A DNA stretch of 61,077 nt from Planctomycetia bacterium (GTDB taxonomy: Bacteria > Planctomycetota > Planctomycetia > Gemmatales > Gemmataceae): assembly GCA_005786805.1 (NCBI GenBank), contig SYCV01000039.1, positions 1 to 61,077 of the forward strand. The letters are read 5' to 3'. The notes under the pieces are model-generated. The model was not told the origin of the DNA. It ran no database searches and saw only the letters and a program-made list of their open reading frames with translations. Of this stretch, positions 27,646-40,855 are shown piece after piece (the stretch's first letter is position 1; every line of letters starts with the position of its first letter). Position numbers and translations under genes: made by a program.

Positions 27646-30600
27646 TTATTTCTTGAACATCTGATGATTCGGATCTCCCCTTGAAAGCAGATACGCGAGC
27701 AAATCGAGAACCTCATTCTCATTAAGGGTTTTTAATAGATCCTGGGGCATCAGGGATACAGGTGAAGCTTTAACAGATTCTATATCCTTCTTTTTCAAGT
27801 CCTGAACTTTGCTGGAATCTTCAGGATCTGTAACCACGATAAGGGATTCGGTGTTTTCGCTCACCACTTTTCCCGTGATGAATTTACCACTCTTGGTCTC
27901 TATCACGGATGCCTTGTACTGATCAGAAATAACCTTGTTGGGCTCGACGATCGATTCACAAAGATCTTTCAAGCTGAATCGTCCAGCAACCTGGCTTAGG
28001 TCCGGACCAGTCGCACCGCCCTCGCCATTGTAACGATGGCATACAACACATCGTGAGGCAGCATACATTTTTTGACCATTTTTAAAATCCCTTTTGACCA
28101 ACTTACCATCAGCAAGCTGAACTAATTCCGTGAGCTTGTATTCCCTGCCTGGCCCCACAGCTTTGGGCAATGCCGGAGCTTTATATGGTTTTTTCAAACC
28201 CAACGCCTCGATTGCAAGTCTTTCGACATCGGTGGCATTATCAAAGGCTTCTTTTTCTATGTTGTTTAAAAAGCCTTGATAACTAGCCCCTCCGCTTTTT
28301 GCACGGGCGTCATTCAATGCTGTGAAATAAATCTTCCTTTGGTCAATGGTCCAATTTTCCTTCAAATTCCTAAGGGAGTAGATATAGTAATTTTTTTGCA
28401 GATCAGGAAAATTTGAAAACATCCTTGATATTCCCCCGCCGTATCCACGATTCCTAAGGAGCAATTCCTCCATCTCCTTGCCATCAACAGCTTTCGATGG
28501 TTGAAGAAGCAACTGGGTGACTTTCCCTGCAATCGTGGCAGATTTCAAATAAACCAAAAGATCCCCAAGATCCCTGTTCAATCTTTCATCGTTTGAAGGA
28601 AAGAAAGGATCAAGCTTGGCAGCCAACTTCGAGGCAACTTCTTTGGCAGGTTCTCCCATGCGAATAAATAGAAGTTGATACGCCCTGACAATTTCCAACT
28701 TCTGGTTCTCACTGAGTGAGGAAAATTCTAATTTTCCCAAGGCATCCAAACCGGCTGGCTGCAAGCTCTTATCGGCCTGCCTTGCAAAAGCTACTATCCC
28801 CTGAATCAGCGCCTCCGGGTTCTTTTCAGACAGTACCTTATCCTGCCAAGTTTTTGGATCCTGGTGTTCGAGGGCAACTCTTGCAGCATAACGAATGAAT
28901 CGATCTTCATGTCCAAGGTTTTCCAAAATGAATTTCAACTGCTCAGCGTTGACTTTCGAGGGGTTATGAAAAGCTTCAAGCTTCTTTCGGAACTCTCGTT
29001 CCTTAGCGCCTTCCTTGTCATTCAACTCCACTGGTGCTGTGGACTCATTACCCACATAAGTGACCCTGAATAATTCAGACTGGGCACCTCTTCCGCCTAT
29101 TGAAAAATACAAGGCACCATCCTTGCCAGCAACAACATCCGTCAATGGAAGCGGTGTCCTCGAGACAAACTCTTCCTTGACAGCCTTGTAACTGCTGCCC
29201 ATGGGGGTGATATGAATTGCGTACATGGTTCCAAAAGTCCAATCGCAAATATAAAGAGCCTTTTGATATTTCGCCGGGAACTTTGTTCCATAGCCAAAAT
29301 CAACTCCAACAGGCGATCCAGGACCTATATCCACCATCGCGGGAAGGCTATCAACATAGTGGGCAGGCCATTTGCCAGTTCCACTTCTCCAACCGAGTTC
29401 ACTGCCGCTGGAAGCATGGTTCACCCGGGTTGGGCGATACCAAGGCATTCCCATGTCCCATTCCATATCCGCGTCATAAACAAACATTTCGCCATCCGCA
29501 TTCAAGGCAATGTCATACTGATTGCGATATCCACTGCTAACAATTTCCCATTCCTTGCCATCTGGATCAGTTTTGGCAATATAACCACCAGGGGCAAGAA
29601 TACCTCTGGCATGGCCATTTGCATCCCATTGCCTGGGTAACAAATGATCCTCCCCCCAATTACTTGGCAACCGGCTAGCGTTGAAATTTTCGGGTGGAAG
29701 AGTGTGATTTCCACATACAACCAAAATGGATTTACCATCGGGAGACAACCGTAGCGCATGGGGTCCGTGCTCACCACCGCCCCGCAAGGCCTTAAGCTTT
29801 ACAACTTCATCAAATTGATCATCATTATTTGTATCGCGGAGCCTATACAACCCACTACCCTGCCCACCATTTACAGAAACATACAAACTGCCAAAGGCAA
29901 AAAGCATACCTTGGGCGGAACTCATCTTAACATCAAGTTTCTCAACCTTGACATCACCAGCAACTCCAGGCGCGGGAACCGTGATCCGGTAAAGCCCCTT
30001 ATCACCCTGATCAGAAGCTATAATTCGCCCCTTCGGATCAACCGTAAGGCACACCCATGATCCAAGTTTATCCTTGGGCACGGTGAAAAGCCTTTCCACT
30101 TGAAAACCCGGAAGCAAATTGAAAGAAGAACTTGGAGCAGATGCGACACCTTCACCAGACAATACATTACCCCATGGGTTGTCACCGAGCTTGGCGACCT
30201 TCTTGGCAGCAACCATTTTGTCTGATTTACCAGATTCAACAGCTTTCCAAGAATCATCAGAAACCACATACGATACCTTGCCATCGGAACTGGTAAGAAC
30301 CATCTTGAATACAAAACCCGCAACCCCTCCTTCATTCTCCACAAATGCTTCCAGGGTATTGGTACCGGCTTTAAGAACCTTGGACACATCAACTTCGACG
30401 GGTGTTTGCCACTCGGAACTTTTGCCGATATCTTGACCGTTGATTTTCATTTTAACAATATTATCGCAGGAGAATTTAACCTTCCCTTTACCACCGTTAA
30501 AGTCAAAAGCCTTGGTTAAAACATATTTGGAATTGTTGCTGGCGCCCCAGATCCAAAATGGATTAGGACCTCCGGAAAAATCATTGCCACGCTTGGTTTT

Positions 30601-30753
30601 CGCCGTGGCGGCAGTTGAAACATCCTTCGTACCGGAGGATGTCAAAACTTCAGGGGTCTGGGTATAAACTTCTTTTTCTAATGCAAACAAATCAGATTGC
30701 AATACGGTTAGCAATCCACCCAAAACCAATAAAAGTCTGTTTCTTAAAAACAT
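27646..30753 (-). CDS. PVC-type dehydrogenase / HEAT / cytochrome c protein
   Basis: A 1,035-residue exported protein. Signal peptide 1-24; an N-terminal galactose-binding-like beta domain (about 30-205; FWIWGASNNSKY, VKMKINGQDIG); a six-bladed sugar-dehydrogenase-like (NHL/GDH) propeller (about 215-580); helical repeats (about 600-860); and a c-type cytochrome domain with CVVCHRYNGEGG and GPDLSQVAG (C904/C907/H908 in the GTG-started numbering). The ATG at 30753 is preferred over GTG 30759 because an AGGGG lies about seven bases before it. The family is thought to oxidise sugars or alcohols in the periplasm and pass electrons to the fused haem. Monocistronic, ended by the terminator at 27594. 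Confidence 0.9.
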   Translation of the reverse strand: MFLRNRLLLVLGGLLTVLQSDLFALEKEVYTQTPEVLTSSGTKDVSTAATAKTKRGNDFSGGPNPFWIWGASNNSKYVLTKAFDFNGGKGKVKFSCDNIVKMKINGQDIGKSSEWQTPVEVDVSKVLKAGTNTLEAFVENEGGVAGFVFKMVLTSSDGKVSYVVSDDSWKAVESGKSDKMVAAKKVAKLGDNPWGNVLSGEGVASAPSSSFNLLPGFQVERLFTVPKDKLGSWVCLTVDPKGRIIASDQGDKGLYRITVPAPGVAGDVKVEKLDVKMSSAQGMLFAFGSLYVSVNGGQGSGLYRLRDTNNDDQFDEVVKLKALRGGGEHGPHALRLSPDGKSILVVCGNHTLPPENFNASRLPSNWGEDHLLPRQWDANGHARGILAPGGYIAKTDPDGKEWEIVSSGYRNQYDIALNADGEMFVYDADMEWDMGMPWYRPTRVNHASSGSELGWRSGTGKWPAHYVDSLPAMVDIGPGSPVGVDFGYGTKFPAKYQKALYICDWTFGTMYAIHITPMGSSYKAVKEEFVSRTPLPLTDVVAGKDGALYFSIGGRGAQSELFRVTYVGNESTAPVELNDKEGAKEREFRKKLEAFHNPSKVNAEQLKFILENLGHEDRFIRYAARVALEHQDPKTWQDKVLSEKNPEALIQGIVAFARQADKSLQPAGLDALGKLEFSSLSENQKLEIVRAYQLLFIRMGEPAKEVASKLAAKLDPFFPSNDERLNRDLGDLLVYLKSATIAGKVTQLLLQPSKAVDGKEMEELLLRNRGYGGGISRMFSNFPDLQKNYYIYSLRNLKENWTIDQRKIYFTALNDARAKSGGASYQGFLNNIEKEAFDNATDVERLAIEALGLKKPYKAPALPKAVGPGREYKLTELVQLADGKLVKRDFKNGQKMYAASRCVVCHRYNGEGGATGPDLSQVAGRFSLKDLCESIVEPNKVISDQYKASVIETKSGKFITGKVVSENTESLIVVTDPEDSSKVQDLKKKDIESVKASPVSLMPQDLLKTLNENEVLDLLAYLLSRGDPNHQMFKK

Positions 30754-30942
30754 AACCACACCCCTGGAGAAATATCAACAATTTCAGAAAATCACACCAA
30801 TATTAAATATTACCGAACTTGTGGCAAATTAACAACCAATTACATTCATATTGCATTACCATTCAAGCCATGCTGGTAGATGCATCAAAGGTATGTTAGG
30901 ATGCCTTTGGATTCCAAATAAAACAGGATGTAACTAACGCAT

Positions 30943-36221: not shown

Positions 36222-38762
36222 TTATTTGGCGAACATTGGCCCAGCGGGATTTCCACGCGAAAGGATATAGGCAAGAAGATCAAATATTTCATCCTCCTTC
36301 AAGGTATCAATAAGGCCCGCAGGCATCATAGAAACCTTTGAAGTCACTATTGATTCAACCTTCCGATGATCCACGACTGTTATCGCGGTGGGATTAAGCA
36401 TGTCCGTGTTCACCATGATGTTATTCCCTGAAAGATTGATAATTCTGCCCGTGACAAGTTTTCCATCATCGGTGCTTATTATCACTCCCGCGTATTGGTC
36501 ACTGATCACCTTGCTGGGCTCGATCAATGACTCGAGAAGATCGCGTTTATTAAACCTACCGGCAGCATTGGTAAGGTCTGGTCCCTGTGCTCCCCCCTCG
36601 TTCTCATAACGATGGCAGGCAACACATCGGGCTTCCGCAAACAATCGTTTTCCTTTTTCGAAGTTTCTTCCCCCAGCCAGATTGGCATCTAGCTTATCAG
36701 TTGAAAGATCTGTCATTTTCCAGGTCTTTACAAAGTCTCTCTTCACAGCAGGCGCTGAAACTTCTGTCAAGGCTGGCTTTGCCTCCAGGATTGATTTTAA
36801 GTCTTCTTTTTCCTTATCAGAAAGAACAACCAAAGCATCACGCTTGATGTTTTCAACAAAGGCACCAAAACTCATTCCACCTTTATAGCCTGCAGCCTTG
36901 ATGAACCATGAGAAGTAATCTTTTTTCAAATCGGCATTCCAGCCTGTGCGAAGCATTCTTAAAGCACGGGCGATTTCCATCTGGTCTTCCTGAGTTGCGG
37001 CATTTTTAAGAAGCGCAACGCCCTTCATCGCAATTGTTGGCGATTGAAGGTAAACAAGCATCTGGCAAAGTTCAGAATTGACAGTCTTGTTATTACCGGG
37101 AAGAAACGCATCCAATTGGCCTGCAAGTTTAGCACCCATGGTTTCATCAGGGGGACCCATTCGAACAAAAAGCACCCCAAGGGTCCTTAGCAAATCAAGC
37201 TTTCGAACATCATCAAGTTTATCAAATGCTATGCCCTGCAAGGCGGAAACGACCTTGGTTTTCAAACCCTGATCAACTTCCTCTTTTTTATGCTGGGGAT
37301 CGGATGAAGTGGAACGAATAAGGGCAAGCAATGCGGGTATAGCCTTGTTGGGATCTTTTTCAGCAAGAGCTTTGTCCCGCCATAGCTTTACATCCTGATG
37401 CTCAAGCGCGACCCTTGCAGCATAACGGATGAATCGATCCGGGCTTCCTAGATGATCCCATGCCTTTGAAACCGCCTCAGGATGGTTGGGTTCATGAAAT
37501 TTTTCCAAACCCAATCGAATAGCCCGATCTTCAGAACCCCTGATATCACCCTTTGAAAGCGCGGTGGATTCCTCCCCATTGTAGGTGACGCGATAAAGTC
37601 CGGATTTGGTTTTTCTGCCACCGATGGTGAAATACAAAGCTCCATCCTTTGGATTCACCAGCAAGTCGGTCAAAGGCAATGGAGAACCGGAAATAAACTC
37701 CTCCACATCAGCTTTGTAGCTGCTACCCAAAGGTGAAAGATGAACAGCATACATTTTGCCATAGCTCCAATCGCATGCGAAAAAAGCCTCCTGATACTTT
37801 GCAGGGAACTTGGCGCCATAACCGAAGGTTACTCCCGTGGGCGAACCGGGACCGATATCCACAACCGCAGGAAGGCTGTCCGCGTAATATGCAGGCCATT
37901 TTCCAGCACCGTTTCTCCAGCCAAACTCGGCACCACTGGTTACATGACAAATTCTCGTGGGACGATACCAAGGAGTGTTGAAATCCCATTCCATATCCGC
38001 ATCGTAAGTGAACAACTCACCCTGCCTGTTGAATGCGGCATCGTATTCATTGCGAAAACCAACTGCCATTATTTCCCAGTTCTTGGCATCCGGGTCGATT
38101 TTGTAAATCGTTCCTCCCGGCCCCATCACCCCAGCCATGAATCCCCTGCCATCGGGCATTCGAGGGAGCAAATGGTCCTCACCCCAGCGGGTGGGAACCC
38201 TACTTGATTTAAAATCAACCAGCTTGGTTTGATTCCCAATGACAACAACCAGGTTTTTACCATCCGGAGAGAGCAAAATTGCATGTGGACCGTGCTCGCC
38301 ACCCCCTGAAAACTTCTGAAGCATGGTAACCTGGTCAAGTTGATCATCCCCATTGGTATCTCTGACCCTGTACAAGCCATGATCATATTTTCCACCTTTG
38401 TTAACCATGACATAAAGGCTGTCGAAAGCCCAGAGAAGCCCTTGAGCCTCACCGATATCCGCTGGGATTTTCTCAACCAAAGTGGGAGTTTTTGAATCAC
38501 CAATTGGGGAAGGAGTAACCCTGAAAAGGCCGCCATTCTGATCTGAAACAATCAGCCTGCCTTTAGGGTCGGTACACATCGAAACCCAAGAGCCTTGGGA
38601 TGATGCGGGAACCGAGTGGAGAAGTTCAACTTTAAAACCTTTGAGAGTTTTGATTTGAGAGGGAGAAGTAGCTGGCGGTTCTTTACCCGCCAGCCTTGGA
38701 TCATCGGGAGCCTTCTTTTTGCCCCCTGTTTTTCCTGGTTTAGTTACTTCTTTTTTTTTTCC
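36222..38762 (-). CDS. PVC-type dehydrogenase-cytochrome, -1 frame continuation of the DUF1080 gene
   Basis: An open frame from 38762 to the stop at 36222 encodes a sugar-dehydrogenase-like propeller, helical repeats and a cytochrome c domain with CVACHRYENEGGAQGPDL, closely like the 27646-30753 protein. The only ATG near the front (38579) lies inside the conserved propeller start. Residues before it (TLKGFKVELLHSV, SSQGSWV) still align with the paralogue's LLPGFQVERLFTV and KLGSWV. No ATG, GTG or TTG exists between 38579 and the in-frame stop at 38763-38765. Starting at 38579 would also leave the haem domain without an export signal. I read this as the 3' part of one gene with the DUF1080 ORF, total about 1,085 residues. 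Confidence 0.85.
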   Translation of the reverse strand, partial: GKKKEVTKPGKTGGKKKAPDDPRLAGKEPPATSPSQIKTLKGFKVELLHSVPASSQGSWVSMCTDPKGRLIVSDQNGGLFRVTPSPIGDSKTPTLVEKIPADIGEAQGLLWAFDSLYVMVNKGGKYDHGLYRVRDTNGDDQLDQVTMLQKFSGGGEHGPHAILLSPDGKNLVVVIGNQTKLVDFKSSRVPTRWGEDHLLPRMPDGRGFMAGVMGPGGTIYKIDPDAKNWEIMAVGFRNEYDAAFNRQGELFTYDADMEWDFNTPWYRPTRICHVTSGAEFGWRNGAGKWPAYYADSLPAVVDIGPGSPTGVTFGYGAKFPAKYQEAFFACDWSYGKMYAVHLSPLGSSYKADVEEFISGSPLPLTDLLVNPKDGALYFTIGGRKTKSGLYRVTYNGEESTALSKGDIRGSEDRAIRLGLEKFHEPNHPEAVSKAWDHLGSPDRFIRYAARVALEHQDVKLWRDKALAEKDPNKAIPALLALIRSTSSDPQHKKEEVDQGLKTKVVSALQGIAFDKLDDVRKLDLLRTLGVLFVRMGPPDETMGAKLAGQLDAFLPGNNKTVNSELCQMLVYLQSPTIAMKGVALLKNAATQEDQMEIARALRMLRTGWNADLKKDYFSWFIKAAGYKGGMSFGAFVENIKRDALVVLSDKEKEDLKSILEAKPALTEVSAPAVKRDFVKTWKMTDLSTDKLDANLAGGRNFEKGKRLFAEARCVACHRYENEGGAQGPDLTNAAGRFNKRDLLESLIEPSKVISDQYAGVIISTDDGKLVTGRIINLSGNNIMVNTDMLNPTAITVVDHRKVESIVTSKVSMMPAGLIDTLKEDEIFDLLAYILSRGNPAGPMFAK
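38671..38694 (-). other. GC-rich hairpin downstream of the A-tract
   Basis: A perfect 8-bp inverted repeat, GCTGGCGG (38671-38678) and CCGCCAGC (38687-38694), with an 8-base loop, lies inside the coding linker. On the minus strand it begins about 55 bases after the slippery tract. That is much farther than the usual 5-10 bases for a frameshift stimulator, so a role is only possible. Confidence 0.4.
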
Positions 38763-39478
38763 TCAGATGCCGTACCCAGTTTCTTAAGTGTCAAGTCCTT
38801 GAATTGCACGGTCATAACAGGTCCCACATGAATCTGCAGGGCTAAAATCCCACTTTTGACGGCCTTGGGAGACTCATCAAGAATTTCAGCGGTGACATTT
38901 CCGTTGATCATATGAACCAGTTTGTTGCCATTGGCAATGATCACATATTCGTTCCAGTCATCTTTTTTAATTGCAGCCTGAAGTTCAGCGGATGATTTTT
39001 CAGTCTTTCCGACAACTTCCTTCTTGTTATCAGAATTCCATTTAACCTTTTCACCACGACCACACATGATACCTCTTCCACCAGCGACACCGCCTTCGTC
39101 ATAAAGAATTCCAGAAAAAGTGGTGCCAGCCTCAAAATCACCCTGATAACCACCAACTCTGGGGCCAAAATCGCCCTGACCCATTAATTTACTTCGATAT
39201 TGAATCCCTGAATTTCCACCAACGATCTTATATTTACATTTAAATTCAAAATCGCTGACTTCTCCACCTTTCCACACGAGAAAAGTATTATGCTTTAACT
39301 TGTTATGGGGTTCAGTACCAGTCTTACCAGTGATGGCGCCATCTTCAACGGACCAAAGCTTGGGGTTACCTTCCCAACCAGTAAGATCTTTCCCATTAAA
39401 AATAGATACAGCTTCCTCAGCAGAATATGAGGAGATTGCAAATACAAAGCCTAAAAACAAAATCGAAAGAATTCTCAT
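38744..39478 (-). CDS. DUF1080 (3-keto-disaccharide hydrolase-like) domain, 5' part of a fusion gene
   Basis: A 244-residue ORF: signal peptide (MRILSILFLGFVFAISSYS), then a DUF1080 domain (about 25-225) with IFNGKDLTGWEGNPKLWSV, NSGIQYRSKL, YQGDFEAG and GILALQIHVG, all typical. Family members hydrolyse 3-keto-glycosides or bind carbohydrate with a jelly-roll fold. ATG 39478 is chosen over 39481 and 39529 because GGAG then lies six bases upstream. The ORF ends SEEKKKK-stop directly on an A10 tract. The -1 frame continues for over 800 codons into a dehydrogenase-cytochrome, through a lysine/proline-rich linker (KEVTKPGKTGGKKKAPDD). Confidence 0.88.
   Translation of the reverse strand: MRILSILFLGFVFAISSYSAEEAVSIFNGKDLTGWEGNPKLWSVEDGAITGKTGTEPHNKLKHNTFLVWKGGEVSDFEFKCKYKIVGGNSGIQYRSKLMGQGDFGPRVGGYQGDFEAGTTFSGILYDEGGVAGGRGIMCGRGEKVKWNSDNKKEVVGKTEKSSAELQAAIKKDDWNEYVIIANGNKLVHMINGNVTAEILDESPKAVKSGILALQIHVGPVMTVQFKDLTLKKLGTASEEKKKK
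38750..38760 (-). other. A10-G slippery tract, putative -1 frameshift site
   Basis: On the coding (minus) strand ten A residues and a G follow GAGG. In the DUF1080 frame the codons read GAA AAA AAA AAG AAG TAA, so A AAA AAG is in the phase needed for -1 slippage, the same heptamer as in E. coli dnaX. A -1 shift reads on as AAA GAA GTA ACT into the dehydrogenase frame. One extra A in the DNA or the mRNA gives the same result. Confidence 0.65.
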
Positions 39479-39736
39479 CATTGACTCCGGTTTAACATCC
39501 AAGGCGTGAAAATATACTAAGTCATTCAAATATTCATTAACTGAACATTAAACTACGATAATAAAATCCAAAAGAATAATCCAGCATTAGTTCCGAGTTA
39601 CATGAAAATATTTCATAGTCCGACCCATCAAAAATGCAGTAAAGTTAATTGTTGCCCCTTGCAAGAACAGACTATAAATTAACTGTTGGATTTATTCCCA
39701 TACAACACCTTCAAATATAATTACCAAGGATTTTTC
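39479..39736. promoter_or_regulatory. Divergent intergenic region
   Basis: These 258 AT-rich bases separate the DUF1080-dehydrogenase operon (minus) from the Gfo/Idh/MocA-ThuA genes (plus) and probably carry both promoters. An 8-bp inverted repeat AGTTAATT...AATTAACT lies at about 39644-39682, and a near-palindrome ATGAAAATATTTCAT near 39602; either could be an operator. AAGGA six bases before ATG 39737 is the Shine-Dalgarno of the next gene. Confidence 0.4.
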
Positions 39737-40855
39737 ATGAGCACCAAGAAATGGAATGTGGCGATGGTTGGCTTGGGATTTGGAGCGGAATTCATTCCAA
39801 TTTATCAAAACCACCCGCTTGGAAACATTTATGCCATCTGCCAGCGAAACAAAGAAAAACTTCACAAAATTGGTGACACCTTTAAAATTGAGAAGCGCTT
39901 CACAAATTATGAAGATGTTTTAAAGGATCCTAATGTTGATTTTGTTCACATTAACTCCCCAATCCCTGACCATGCACCCATGTCCATAGCCGCGTTAAAA
40001 GCTGGCAAGCATGTCATGTGCACCGTGCCTATGGCTACAACGGTCGAGGATTGCAAAACCATCGTTGATTTGGTTAAAAAAACCGGCCTTAAATACATGA
40101 TGGCGGAAACCGTCGTTTACTCAAGGGAATTTCTTTTCATCAAGGATATGTTCCAAAAAGGTGAGCTTGGAAAAATTCAATACATGGCGGCATCCCACCC
40201 ACAAGACATGGATGGATGGCCCGACTATTGGCAGAAAATGATACCCATGCATTACGCCACCCATGTTGTCAGCCCCTGCCTGGGTTTGGTGAATGGCAAG
40301 GCGGAAAATGTCAGTTGCTTTGGTTCCGGGACTGTCAGGGAGGAAATCCAAAAGTTATCAGGCAACAAATTCGCTGTTGAATCCTGCCATATTAAAATAA
40401 AGGATTCTGATATCGCATGCCATATTTGGCGATTCTTATACGACACGGCAAGGCAATACCGCGAAAGCTTTGATGTTTATGGCACAAAGAAAAGCTTCGA
40501 GTGGAGCCTTGTGGAACATGAACCACATATAATTCACACCGCCAAAAAGCCTGAGCCTGAAATTCCAAGTAAAATTACCGTGCCTGATTTCGCGCATCTT
40601 CTACCGGAACCGATCAGGAAATTCACGCTTCCCTCAGAAATCCATGATGCCGAGCACCTATCCTTTTTACAGGGCGGCGGGCATGGTGGTTCCCATCCTC
40701 ACATGGTCAATGAATTCCTGAGTGCATTGTCCAACAACCGCGATCCTTGGCCAAATGCCACTCAAAGCGCGAACTGGACCTGCGTGGGCATTCTCGCGCA
40801 TGAGTCGGCATTACAAGGTGGGAAAGTACTAAACCTCCCCGACTTCACTCTTTAA
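39737..40855 (+). CDS. Gfo/Idh/MocA family oxidoreductase
   Basis: A 372-residue NAD(P)-dependent sugar-type oxidoreductase without a signal peptide. N-terminal Rossmann fold with VGLGFG (glycines 12/14/16) and the family's alpha/beta C-terminal domain. Where most members have EKP with the catalytic lysine, this protein reads CTVPMA (Val97 in the lysine position); I recall a planctomycete subgroup with the same substitution. ATG 39737 is chosen over 39686 because of AAGGA and because the family N-terminus then fits. It precedes the ThuA-dehydrogenase-cytochrome gene by 41 bp, probably one operon. It could reduce a 3-keto sugar to the parent sugar, which is inference. Confidence 0.9.
   Translation: MSTKKWNVAMVGLGFGAEFIPIYQNHPLGNIYAICQRNKEKLHKIGDTFKIEKRFTNYEDVLKDPNVDFVHINSPIPDHAPMSIAALKAGKHVMCTVPMATTVEDCKTIVDLVKKTGLKYMMAETVVYSREFLFIKDMFQKGELGKIQYMAASHPQDMDGWPDYWQKMIPMHYATHVVSPCLGLVNGKAENVSCFGSGTVREEIQKLSGNKFAVESCHIKIKDSDIACHIWRFLYDTARQYRESFDVYGTKKSFEWSLVEHEPHIIHTAKKPEPEIPSKITVPDFAHLLPEPIRKFTLPSEIHDAEHLSFLQGGGHGGSHPHMVNEFLSALSNNRDPWPNATQSANWTCVGILAHESALQGGKVLNLPDFTL

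Follow-up and report, generated by a model that had tools for sequence, protein, structure and literature searches.

How is a protein made whose reading frame offers no usual start codon before its conserved domain and no signal peptide, when its haem is of the c type, which is attached outside the cytoplasm? The question is raised by a locus on the minus strand of contig SYCV01000039.1 from a Planctomycetia bacterium (Gemmataceae, assembly GCA_005786805.1). The whole contig of 61,077 nucleotides was analysed and is called the window below; it is contig C240 of a 3.92-Mb draft genome (G000) in 259 contigs that is 88.7% complete. There, a gene for a DUF1080 protein (open reading frame (ORF) 1) stops directly after a run of ten A's (A10), and the -1 frame from this tract opens into an ORF for a putative dehydrogenase-cytochrome (ORF 2). 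An earlier note, drawn from the letters of the window, had proposed that the two genes are joined by slippage at the A tract, and conservation of the A10 junction in six of six loci strongly supports this proposal. We judge it very probable that the frameshift conserved at A10 is real and programmed, and probable that the tract is a programmed slippage site, most likely for RNA polymerase, that would yield a free hydrolase together with an exported hydrolase-dehydrogenase-cytochrome fusion. The occurrence of slippage, its transcriptional nature, its rate and its biochemical role are what we infer from the sequences compared.

Results

The A10 tract lies at the junction of two reading frames

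As the earlier note had read, ORF 1 ends on A10 and a G with a TAA shortly after; on the minus strand its 3' end is GAG GAA AAA AAA AAG AAG TAA (Table 1). The -1 frame is open from the tract for 846 codons, reaching position 36222, and leads directly into the cytochrome ORF. The heptamer A AAA AAG is in phase at the tract, and a GAGG sits just upstream of it. By simple arithmetic, joining ORF 1 and ORF 2 gives a product of about 1,085 residues, the size that the earlier note had put forward. Rfam models gave no match in the window at gathering thresholds.

When the whole 5' stretch of ORF 2 was read, no ATG, GTG or TTG was found upstream of position 38579, and the ATG at that position encodes residue 62, already within the conserved domain. 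Reading of the sequence revealed no signal-like stretch at the N terminus. BLASTP aligned ORF 2 with the paralogue at 27646-30759 from residue 24 onwards (47% identity over 866 columns). The lack of a start before the conserved domain, the lack of a signal peptide and the alignment with the paralogue of residues preceding the sole ATG had all been claimed, and all three were found again. Annotation pipelines will probably place the start of ORF 2 wrongly at 38579 or report ORF 2 as a fragment.

The junction is conserved in two genera

We searched 59 genomes for orthologs of the DUF1080 gene. Close ones (89% identity, E <1e-148) are present in G001, G003, G004 and G006, four of the six congeners (G001-G006, genus g1), and, counting G000, five of the seven congeneric genomes searched carry the locus. 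The next-best matches came from G027 (76%) and G034 (71%). The A10 arrangement is absent from G027; it is present in G034, a member of another genus, at a locus with 67% DNA identity. In all six loci (G000, G001, G003, G004, G006 and G034) there are exactly ten A's and a -1 split: the ORF 1 stop comes right after the tract, the -1 frame is then open into the cytochrome, and a TGA closes this frame at the border codon of the tract or one codon earlier. L005 (QWPF01000028.1) shows the same junction as G003 and is treated with it as one locus. The MAFFT alignment of the DNA put the tract of G034 three columns off, and the count of six is based on the position of the tract relative to the frames. 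The earlier note had pointed to relatives as the place to tell A10 from A11 and to look for fused ORFs; they have ten A's throughout, and fused in-frame ORFs are found elsewhere (see below).

The base 3' of the tract is a G in five loci and a C in G001 (A AAA AAC). The claim that A AAA AAG stands in slippage phase is therefore correct for five of the six loci, the window included, but the invariant feature is A10 and not the heptamer.

The proportion of synonymous differences (pS) between G000 and the other congeners was 0.72-0.75 for DUF1080 and 0.61-0.62 for the first 240 cytochrome codons, and 0.70-0.90 in comparisons with G034, values that put synonymous sites near saturation among the A10 loci. 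Since A10 and the -1 split are kept in all six loci despite this near saturation, an error in tract length is very unlikely. Within the genus, the ratio of non-synonymous to synonymous substitution rates (dN/dS, pairs with finite dS) ranged from 0.025 to 0.054 for DUF1080 and from 0.019 to 0.049 for the cytochrome, which indicates purifying selection on both ORFs and, for the cytochrome part, a strong one. As ORF 2 would have neither start nor signal in the absence of a slip, and yet is selected, we read this selection as meaning that ORF 2 is expressed. The linker that follows the tract counts 37, 33 or 34 codons, the species differing by whole codons, and the remaining two frames hit a stop within three codons in all six loci. 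With a dN/dS of 0.13-0.37 between G000 and its congeners but of 0.68-1.84 for three G001 pairs (on about 24 synonymous sites), the linker itself is constrained only loosely.

Long A runs are scarce in the genome

The tract is the sole A or T run of at least nine in the window. Shuffles of the window led us to expect 11.65 overlapping A/T 9-mers and 3.83 overlapping A/T 10-mers (compare with 2 and 1 seen, all from the tract). The G000 genome as a whole holds 81 overlapping 9-mers in 78 runs; three of these runs reach ten and none is longer, namely this tract, the run in dnaX and a T10 close to the 5' end of a different gene. Although the shuffle rate of the window may not apply genome-wide, G000 clearly has few runs of ten. 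According to a script, 47 of the 78 runs lie in A-sense ORFs of at least 450 nucleotides, 16 in T-sense ORFs and 15 in neither, and under its length criteria two were flagged between an upstream and a downstream ORF: this tract and L299. Because such a run is rare in both window and genome and rarely flagged between ORFs, its presence at an ORF junction is more than chance.

L299 (G000:C140:5746-5754, A9) splits a PSCyt2/PSD1 (DUF1549/DUF1553) gene in G000; in the four orthologs found (G001, G004, G005 and G006) the gene is unbroken and there is no run at that place. L299 looks like a single-genome indel; it has the appearance of an error or a private mutation, and the conserved A10 locus differs from it in this respect.

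Two side observations concern A runs in the genus. G002 has 63 overlapping A10 matches, with runs of up to 20 (compare with 2-7 matches in the other six genomes), which would reflect either an unusual tolerance of long A runs or a peculiarity of the assembly. Four further A10 runs (L120, L125, L127 and L140, in G005, G004, G006 and G001, respectively) have similar flanks and lie in A-sense ORFs of at most 85 codons.

Signals around the tract

The A10 loci share two traits with programmed transcriptional slippage genes: an A or T run of about 8-9 or longer where the frames meet, and a kept relation of tract and frames with a downstream frame under coding selection. A frameshift of the Escherichia coli dnaX type has an internal Shine-Dalgarno (SD) sequence upstream and a stem-loop 5-6 nucleotides downstream, and the usual spacing of a frameshift stimulator is 5-9 nucleotides. 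An SD-like GAGG precedes the tract in only one of the six loci, and in none of the six genomes does the fold of the first 60 nucleotides downstream (+1 to +60) beat shuffles (z of -1.45, 0.08, -0.67, 0.07, -0.18 and 1.16). A predicted hairpin farther downstream is kept in five of five congeneric loci, at 43 nucleotides from the tract in G001, and is altered in G034; its spacing is larger than the usual one. Read by eye, the synonymous positions of its stem look unusually well kept. Since A10 and not the heptamer is invariant, since GAGG occurs once in six loci and since +1 to +60 shows no structure, slippage of RNA polymerase is favoured, and the A10 locus seems to fit an E. coli dnaX-style ribosomal shift less well.

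Other arrangements of the two genes

A junction script with the window's DUF1080 as query was applied to 149 loci (80 named ones and 69 from genomes of the family, partly the same sequences). No DUF1080 was found upstream of the cytochrome in 118 of them, a count in which distant DUF1080 domains may be missed. The remaining 31 comprise 20 in-frame fusions, eight shifted junctions with an A run of at least nine (L005 and L182-L186, which belong to the A10 clade, plus L026 and L059) and three shifted ones without such a run (L188, L197 and L202). In a wider class search over 397 genomes, 30 loci were examined among the matches listed: 12 are in-frame fusions, 17 are without a DUF1080 match and one is split (L252, which is L026). 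In-frame fusions of DUF1080 with a cytochrome of the Planctomycetes-Verrucomicrobia-Chlamydiae (PVC) type occur in other planctomycetes and in Verrucomicrobia (for example L027, L034, L064 and L071). The related genus g22 (G027, G096 and G097) has two separate genes, the one for the cytochrome starting with an ATG of its own and encoding a signal-like N terminus.

Two shifted loci were rejected as support: L026/L252 (A10), whose congeners G045, G130 and G121 are in frame without an A run, and L059 (A9), whose tree neighbour L032 is in frame with A10. Each may be an indel private to its genome, an assembly error or a slippage site of recent origin.

The six A10 loci form one clade in the cytochrome tree (100/100; 42 rows, those of G001 and G097 partial). 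In the DUF1080 tree (35 rows) they group with g22 at 90/88, and this tree does not settle the order of g1, G034 and g22; the claim of a single origin therefore comes from the cytochrome tree. Genus g22, in which a more distantly related cytochrome adjoins the same DUF1080, is best taken as a comparison, not as a clean ancestor.

Predicted products

ORF 1 scores 121.1 bits against PF06439 (curated cut-off 26.8). It starts at an ATG at 39481 or 39478, preceded by GGAG at 39488-39485, and its N terminus shows, by eye, a hydrophobic, signal-like stretch. A passage of PMC9007349 proposes DUF1080 proteins to be 3-keto-glycoside hydrolases adjoining LacABC-type dehydrogenases, and planctomycetes are described as rich in DUF1080 proteins in a passage of PMC5673643. 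For ORF 1, cleavage of 3-keto-glycosides is predicted solely from family membership. A Gfo/Idh/MocA oxidoreductase gene adjoins ORF 1 divergently (39737-40855) and is consistent with sugar oxidation.

ORF 2 matches TIGR02603, the CxxCH domain, with 91.8 bits (E 3.6e-26, cut-off 68.15), and its cytochrome c domain is also matched by PF00034. Against TIGR02604, the N-terminal domain, it scores 69.1 bits, below the cut-off of 122.2, and would in this respect be a divergent relative. Residues C713, C716 and H717 of the haem motif are invariant in 27 of 27 aligned sequences; H157, H160, R237 and N238 are invariant in the alignment as well. In the AlphaFold2 model (mean pLDDT 80.8), a low-confidence linker (residues 1-32) precedes a part rich in strands, a helical one and the haem domain. 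Foldseek placed 8re0, 5min, 3das and 2ism at the top (E 1e-11 to 2e-10, TM by target 0.52-0.71, identity 12-17%); the best matches are soluble pyrroloquinoline quinone (PQQ) glucose dehydrogenase (sGDH) and aldose sugar dehydrogenases, and the propeller is of the sGDH kind. When the sequence was compared with solved structures, the haem end alone was matched, and no sGDH entry appeared at E 0.01. Judging by the modelled fold, dehydrogenase-cytochrome is a fair label for ORF 2, its activity being predicted.

Table 1. Features of the A10 locus and the related dnaX run (window coordinates unless a contig is given)
Feature	Position	Strand	Basis
ORF 1, DUF1080 (PF06439, 3-keto-disaccharide hydrolase), 245 aa	38744..39481	minus	PF06439, E 7.4e-35
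TGA closing the -1 frame just 5' of the tract	38763..38765	minus	frame reading; counterpart in 6/6 loci
A10 tract, putative slippage site	38751..38760	minus	sequence; exactly ten in 6/6 clade loci
TAA stop of ORF 1, 4 bases 3' of the tract	38744..38746	minus	sequence
ORF 2 (-1 frame), 846 aa: linker, beta-propeller, HEAT-like helices, c-type haem domain	36222..38762	minus	TIGR02603, AlphaFold2 model, Foldseek
Linker, open in the -1 frame only, 37 codons in the window	38640..38750	minus	frame comparison
Predicted hairpin, 9 bp with 8-base loop, 55 nt 3' of the tract	38670..38695	minus	folding
CVACH haem-binding motif	36612..36626	minus	sequence; invariant residues in alignment
dnaX run	L002, G000:C108:8614-8623; L172-L178 across genus		run and frame reading

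Discussion

A model for the locus

We propose that RNA polymerase slips on A10 and thereby produces two classes of mRNA. The unslipped class would encode a secreted, stand-alone DUF1080 hydrolase with a C-terminal KKKK. A tract length giving the -1 frame would let translation continue into ORF 2, and the product would be an exported fusion of some 1,085 residues composed of the hydrolase, a lysine-rich linker, a quinoprotein-like beta-propeller, HEAT-like helices and cytochrome c. The signal peptide of the hydrolase would serve both products, and the slip rate would set the ratio of free hydrolase to fusion. As to its role, 3-keto-glycoside cleavage may be coupled to sugar oxidation, with electrons passing to the haem; the fusion would unite oxidation, electron transfer and cleavage in a single chain, to which the unslipped mRNA would add free hydrolase.

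Several observations weigh against this reading. The heptamer is kept in five of the six loci. The kept hairpin, 43-55 nucleotides from the tract, makes the downstream sequence fold better than shuffles over +1 to +110 (z of -3.67, -3.08, -4.10, -1.81, -3.93 and -3.24, the value for G034 being -1.81 and those for the five congeners -4.10 to -3.08), and the minimum-energy folds of G000 and G006 also have the five bases adjoining the tract paired; the kept hairpin and this tract-adjacent pairing would suit a ribosomal signal. As regards conservation, G002 (73% complete) and G005 (86% complete) gave no ortholog (best E 9e-15 and 8e-19), DUF1080 dN/dS is 0.085 and 0.132 for two G034 pairs, and linker dN/dS is 0.68-1.84 for three G001 pairs, computed on 23-28 synonymous sites. 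Finally, the g22 cytochrome shares only 58-69% identity over the compared part and does not take the sister position.

The main rival is thus a slip of the ribosome, either by -1 frameshifting on A AAA AAG or by sliding on the AAA-lysine run, and we regard it as unlikely. The in-phase heptamer of five loci, the GAGG upstream in the window and the kept hairpin speak for it; moreover, a passage of PMC4363877 describes E. coli ribosomes sliding on iterated AAA codons, and one of PMC4066793 a proven A AAA AAC case in an insertion sequence (IS) cluster without an established stimulator. However, the heptamer of G001 ends in C, GAGG is limited to one locus, the hairpin is distant and its distance varies, and an exact run of ten exceeds what the heptamer needs. 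The earlier note had held programmed frameshifting, transcriptional slippage and a sequencing error all to fit. Of these, a sequencing error can now be regarded as very unlikely, and the evidence favours transcriptional slippage over the ribosomal shift.

A sequencing or assembly error, behind which the true tract length would give an ordinary in-frame fusion gene, draws on the fragmented state of the G000 draft and on L299, whose split at A9 in one genome and intact state in four orthologs indicate that A runs do suffer indels in single genomes; L026 and L059 may be further cases of this kind. Against it, the same A10 and -1 split recur in six different sequences from two genera, and 45 of the 47 in-ORF A-sense runs of at least nine in G000 are not flagged as ORF splits. 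We hold this explanation to be highly improbable. The same grade applies to phase variation, in which replication slippage would toggle the fusion between cells: slipped-strand switching at homopolymers is well known (a passage of PMC3711429), but a switch should show its other state in some genomes, and another tract length is seen in none of the six loci. Least probable of all is that two separate proteins are made through a non-canonical start of ORF 2, or that ORF 2 is decaying. All six loci keep a CTG within linker codons 16-20, followed in G034 by a GTG, that could serve as such a start. However, this CTG is not followed by a signal-like stretch, although attachment of haem c takes place outside the cytoplasm; it is part of the hairpin stem; upstream of it the -1 frame remains open and indels comprise whole codons; and the within-genus dN/dS of ORF 2 argues against decay.

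Coming back to transcriptional slippage, we lean towards a slippage-gated fusion inherited from the ancestor of the two genera, whose cytochrome gene, devoid of start and signal, would rely wholly on A10 for its export and its ratio to free hydrolase; given the A9 or A10 run that the genus retains in dnaX, slippage on A runs is possibly a general recoding tool here, with runs of ten or more almost purged elsewhere in the genome. The relatives show two solutions free of slippage, separate genes and a plain fusion, and offer a natural comparison for the origin of slippage dependence.

Comparison with known systems

Among the matches listed in the open-licence literature, none was an earlier report on either the gene pair or planctomycete slippage. 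Passages of PMC3711429, which covers 146 clusters of predicted recoding genes, name neither DUF1080 nor a cytochrome, and its supplements may list the family.

The earlier note had called the tract dnaX-like. The E. coli dnaX gene, as described in a passage of PMC3711429, uses -1 ribosomal frameshifting, and five of the six A10 loci share the phase of its A AAA AAG. Unlike E. coli dnaX, the A10 loci have GAGG in a single case and no stem-loop within 60 nucleotides that beats shuffles, and the heptamer is altered in G001. Among dnaX genes, that of Thermus appears to be the better comparison. On its A9, transcriptional slippage yields about half of the product (passages of PMC5009743 and PMC3711429), and in Thermus thermophilus, as proposed for the A10 locus, a single gene yields a long and a short product through slippage on an A run. 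The two differ in that the unslipped mRNA of Thermus encodes the long product, whereas the long product of the A10 locus would require the slip; the protein families also differ, and slippage at A10 is deduced from sequence. The dnaX genes of the genus itself have an A9 run in six of the seven genomes and A10 in one, that of the window; in all seven, gain or loss of one A brings a stop within 4-7 codons of the start of the run, and the run is a likely Thermus-type slippage site. The two-ORF dnaX genes with ten A's mentioned in PMC3711429 come closer in layout, since their frames are joined at the run and the long product needs recoding, as here. They encode a subunit of DNA polymerase, whereas the slip at A10 would join two enzymes and supply an export signal.

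Together with dnaX, tssM1 is a cellular case of slippage. In Citrobacter rodentium its A11 gives a transcriptional frameshift of about 20-25%, and both forms are needed (a passage of PMC4256274). Like the A10 locus, it has a poly-A run shortly before a stop and a short and a full-length product; but in tssM1 one interrupted gene is restored, whereas the A10 locus joins domains that are elsewhere separate or plainly fused, and its junction spans six species-level genomes. The in-frame DUF1080-cytochrome fusions have the same kinds of domain in one chain, but in one frame and with no need of a slip. In the LacABC 3-dehydrogenase system (a passage of PMC9007349), a periplasmic DUF1080 hydrolase is proposed to pair with a sugar dehydrogenase, as here; its genes are separate, unlike the A10 fusion, and the propeller chemistry of the latter is predicted from the fold. 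The A10 locus adds a new gene to a known class of recoding, that of an exported haem enzyme seemingly made only by way of slippage in all six genomes, with the twist that the slip would also provide for its export.

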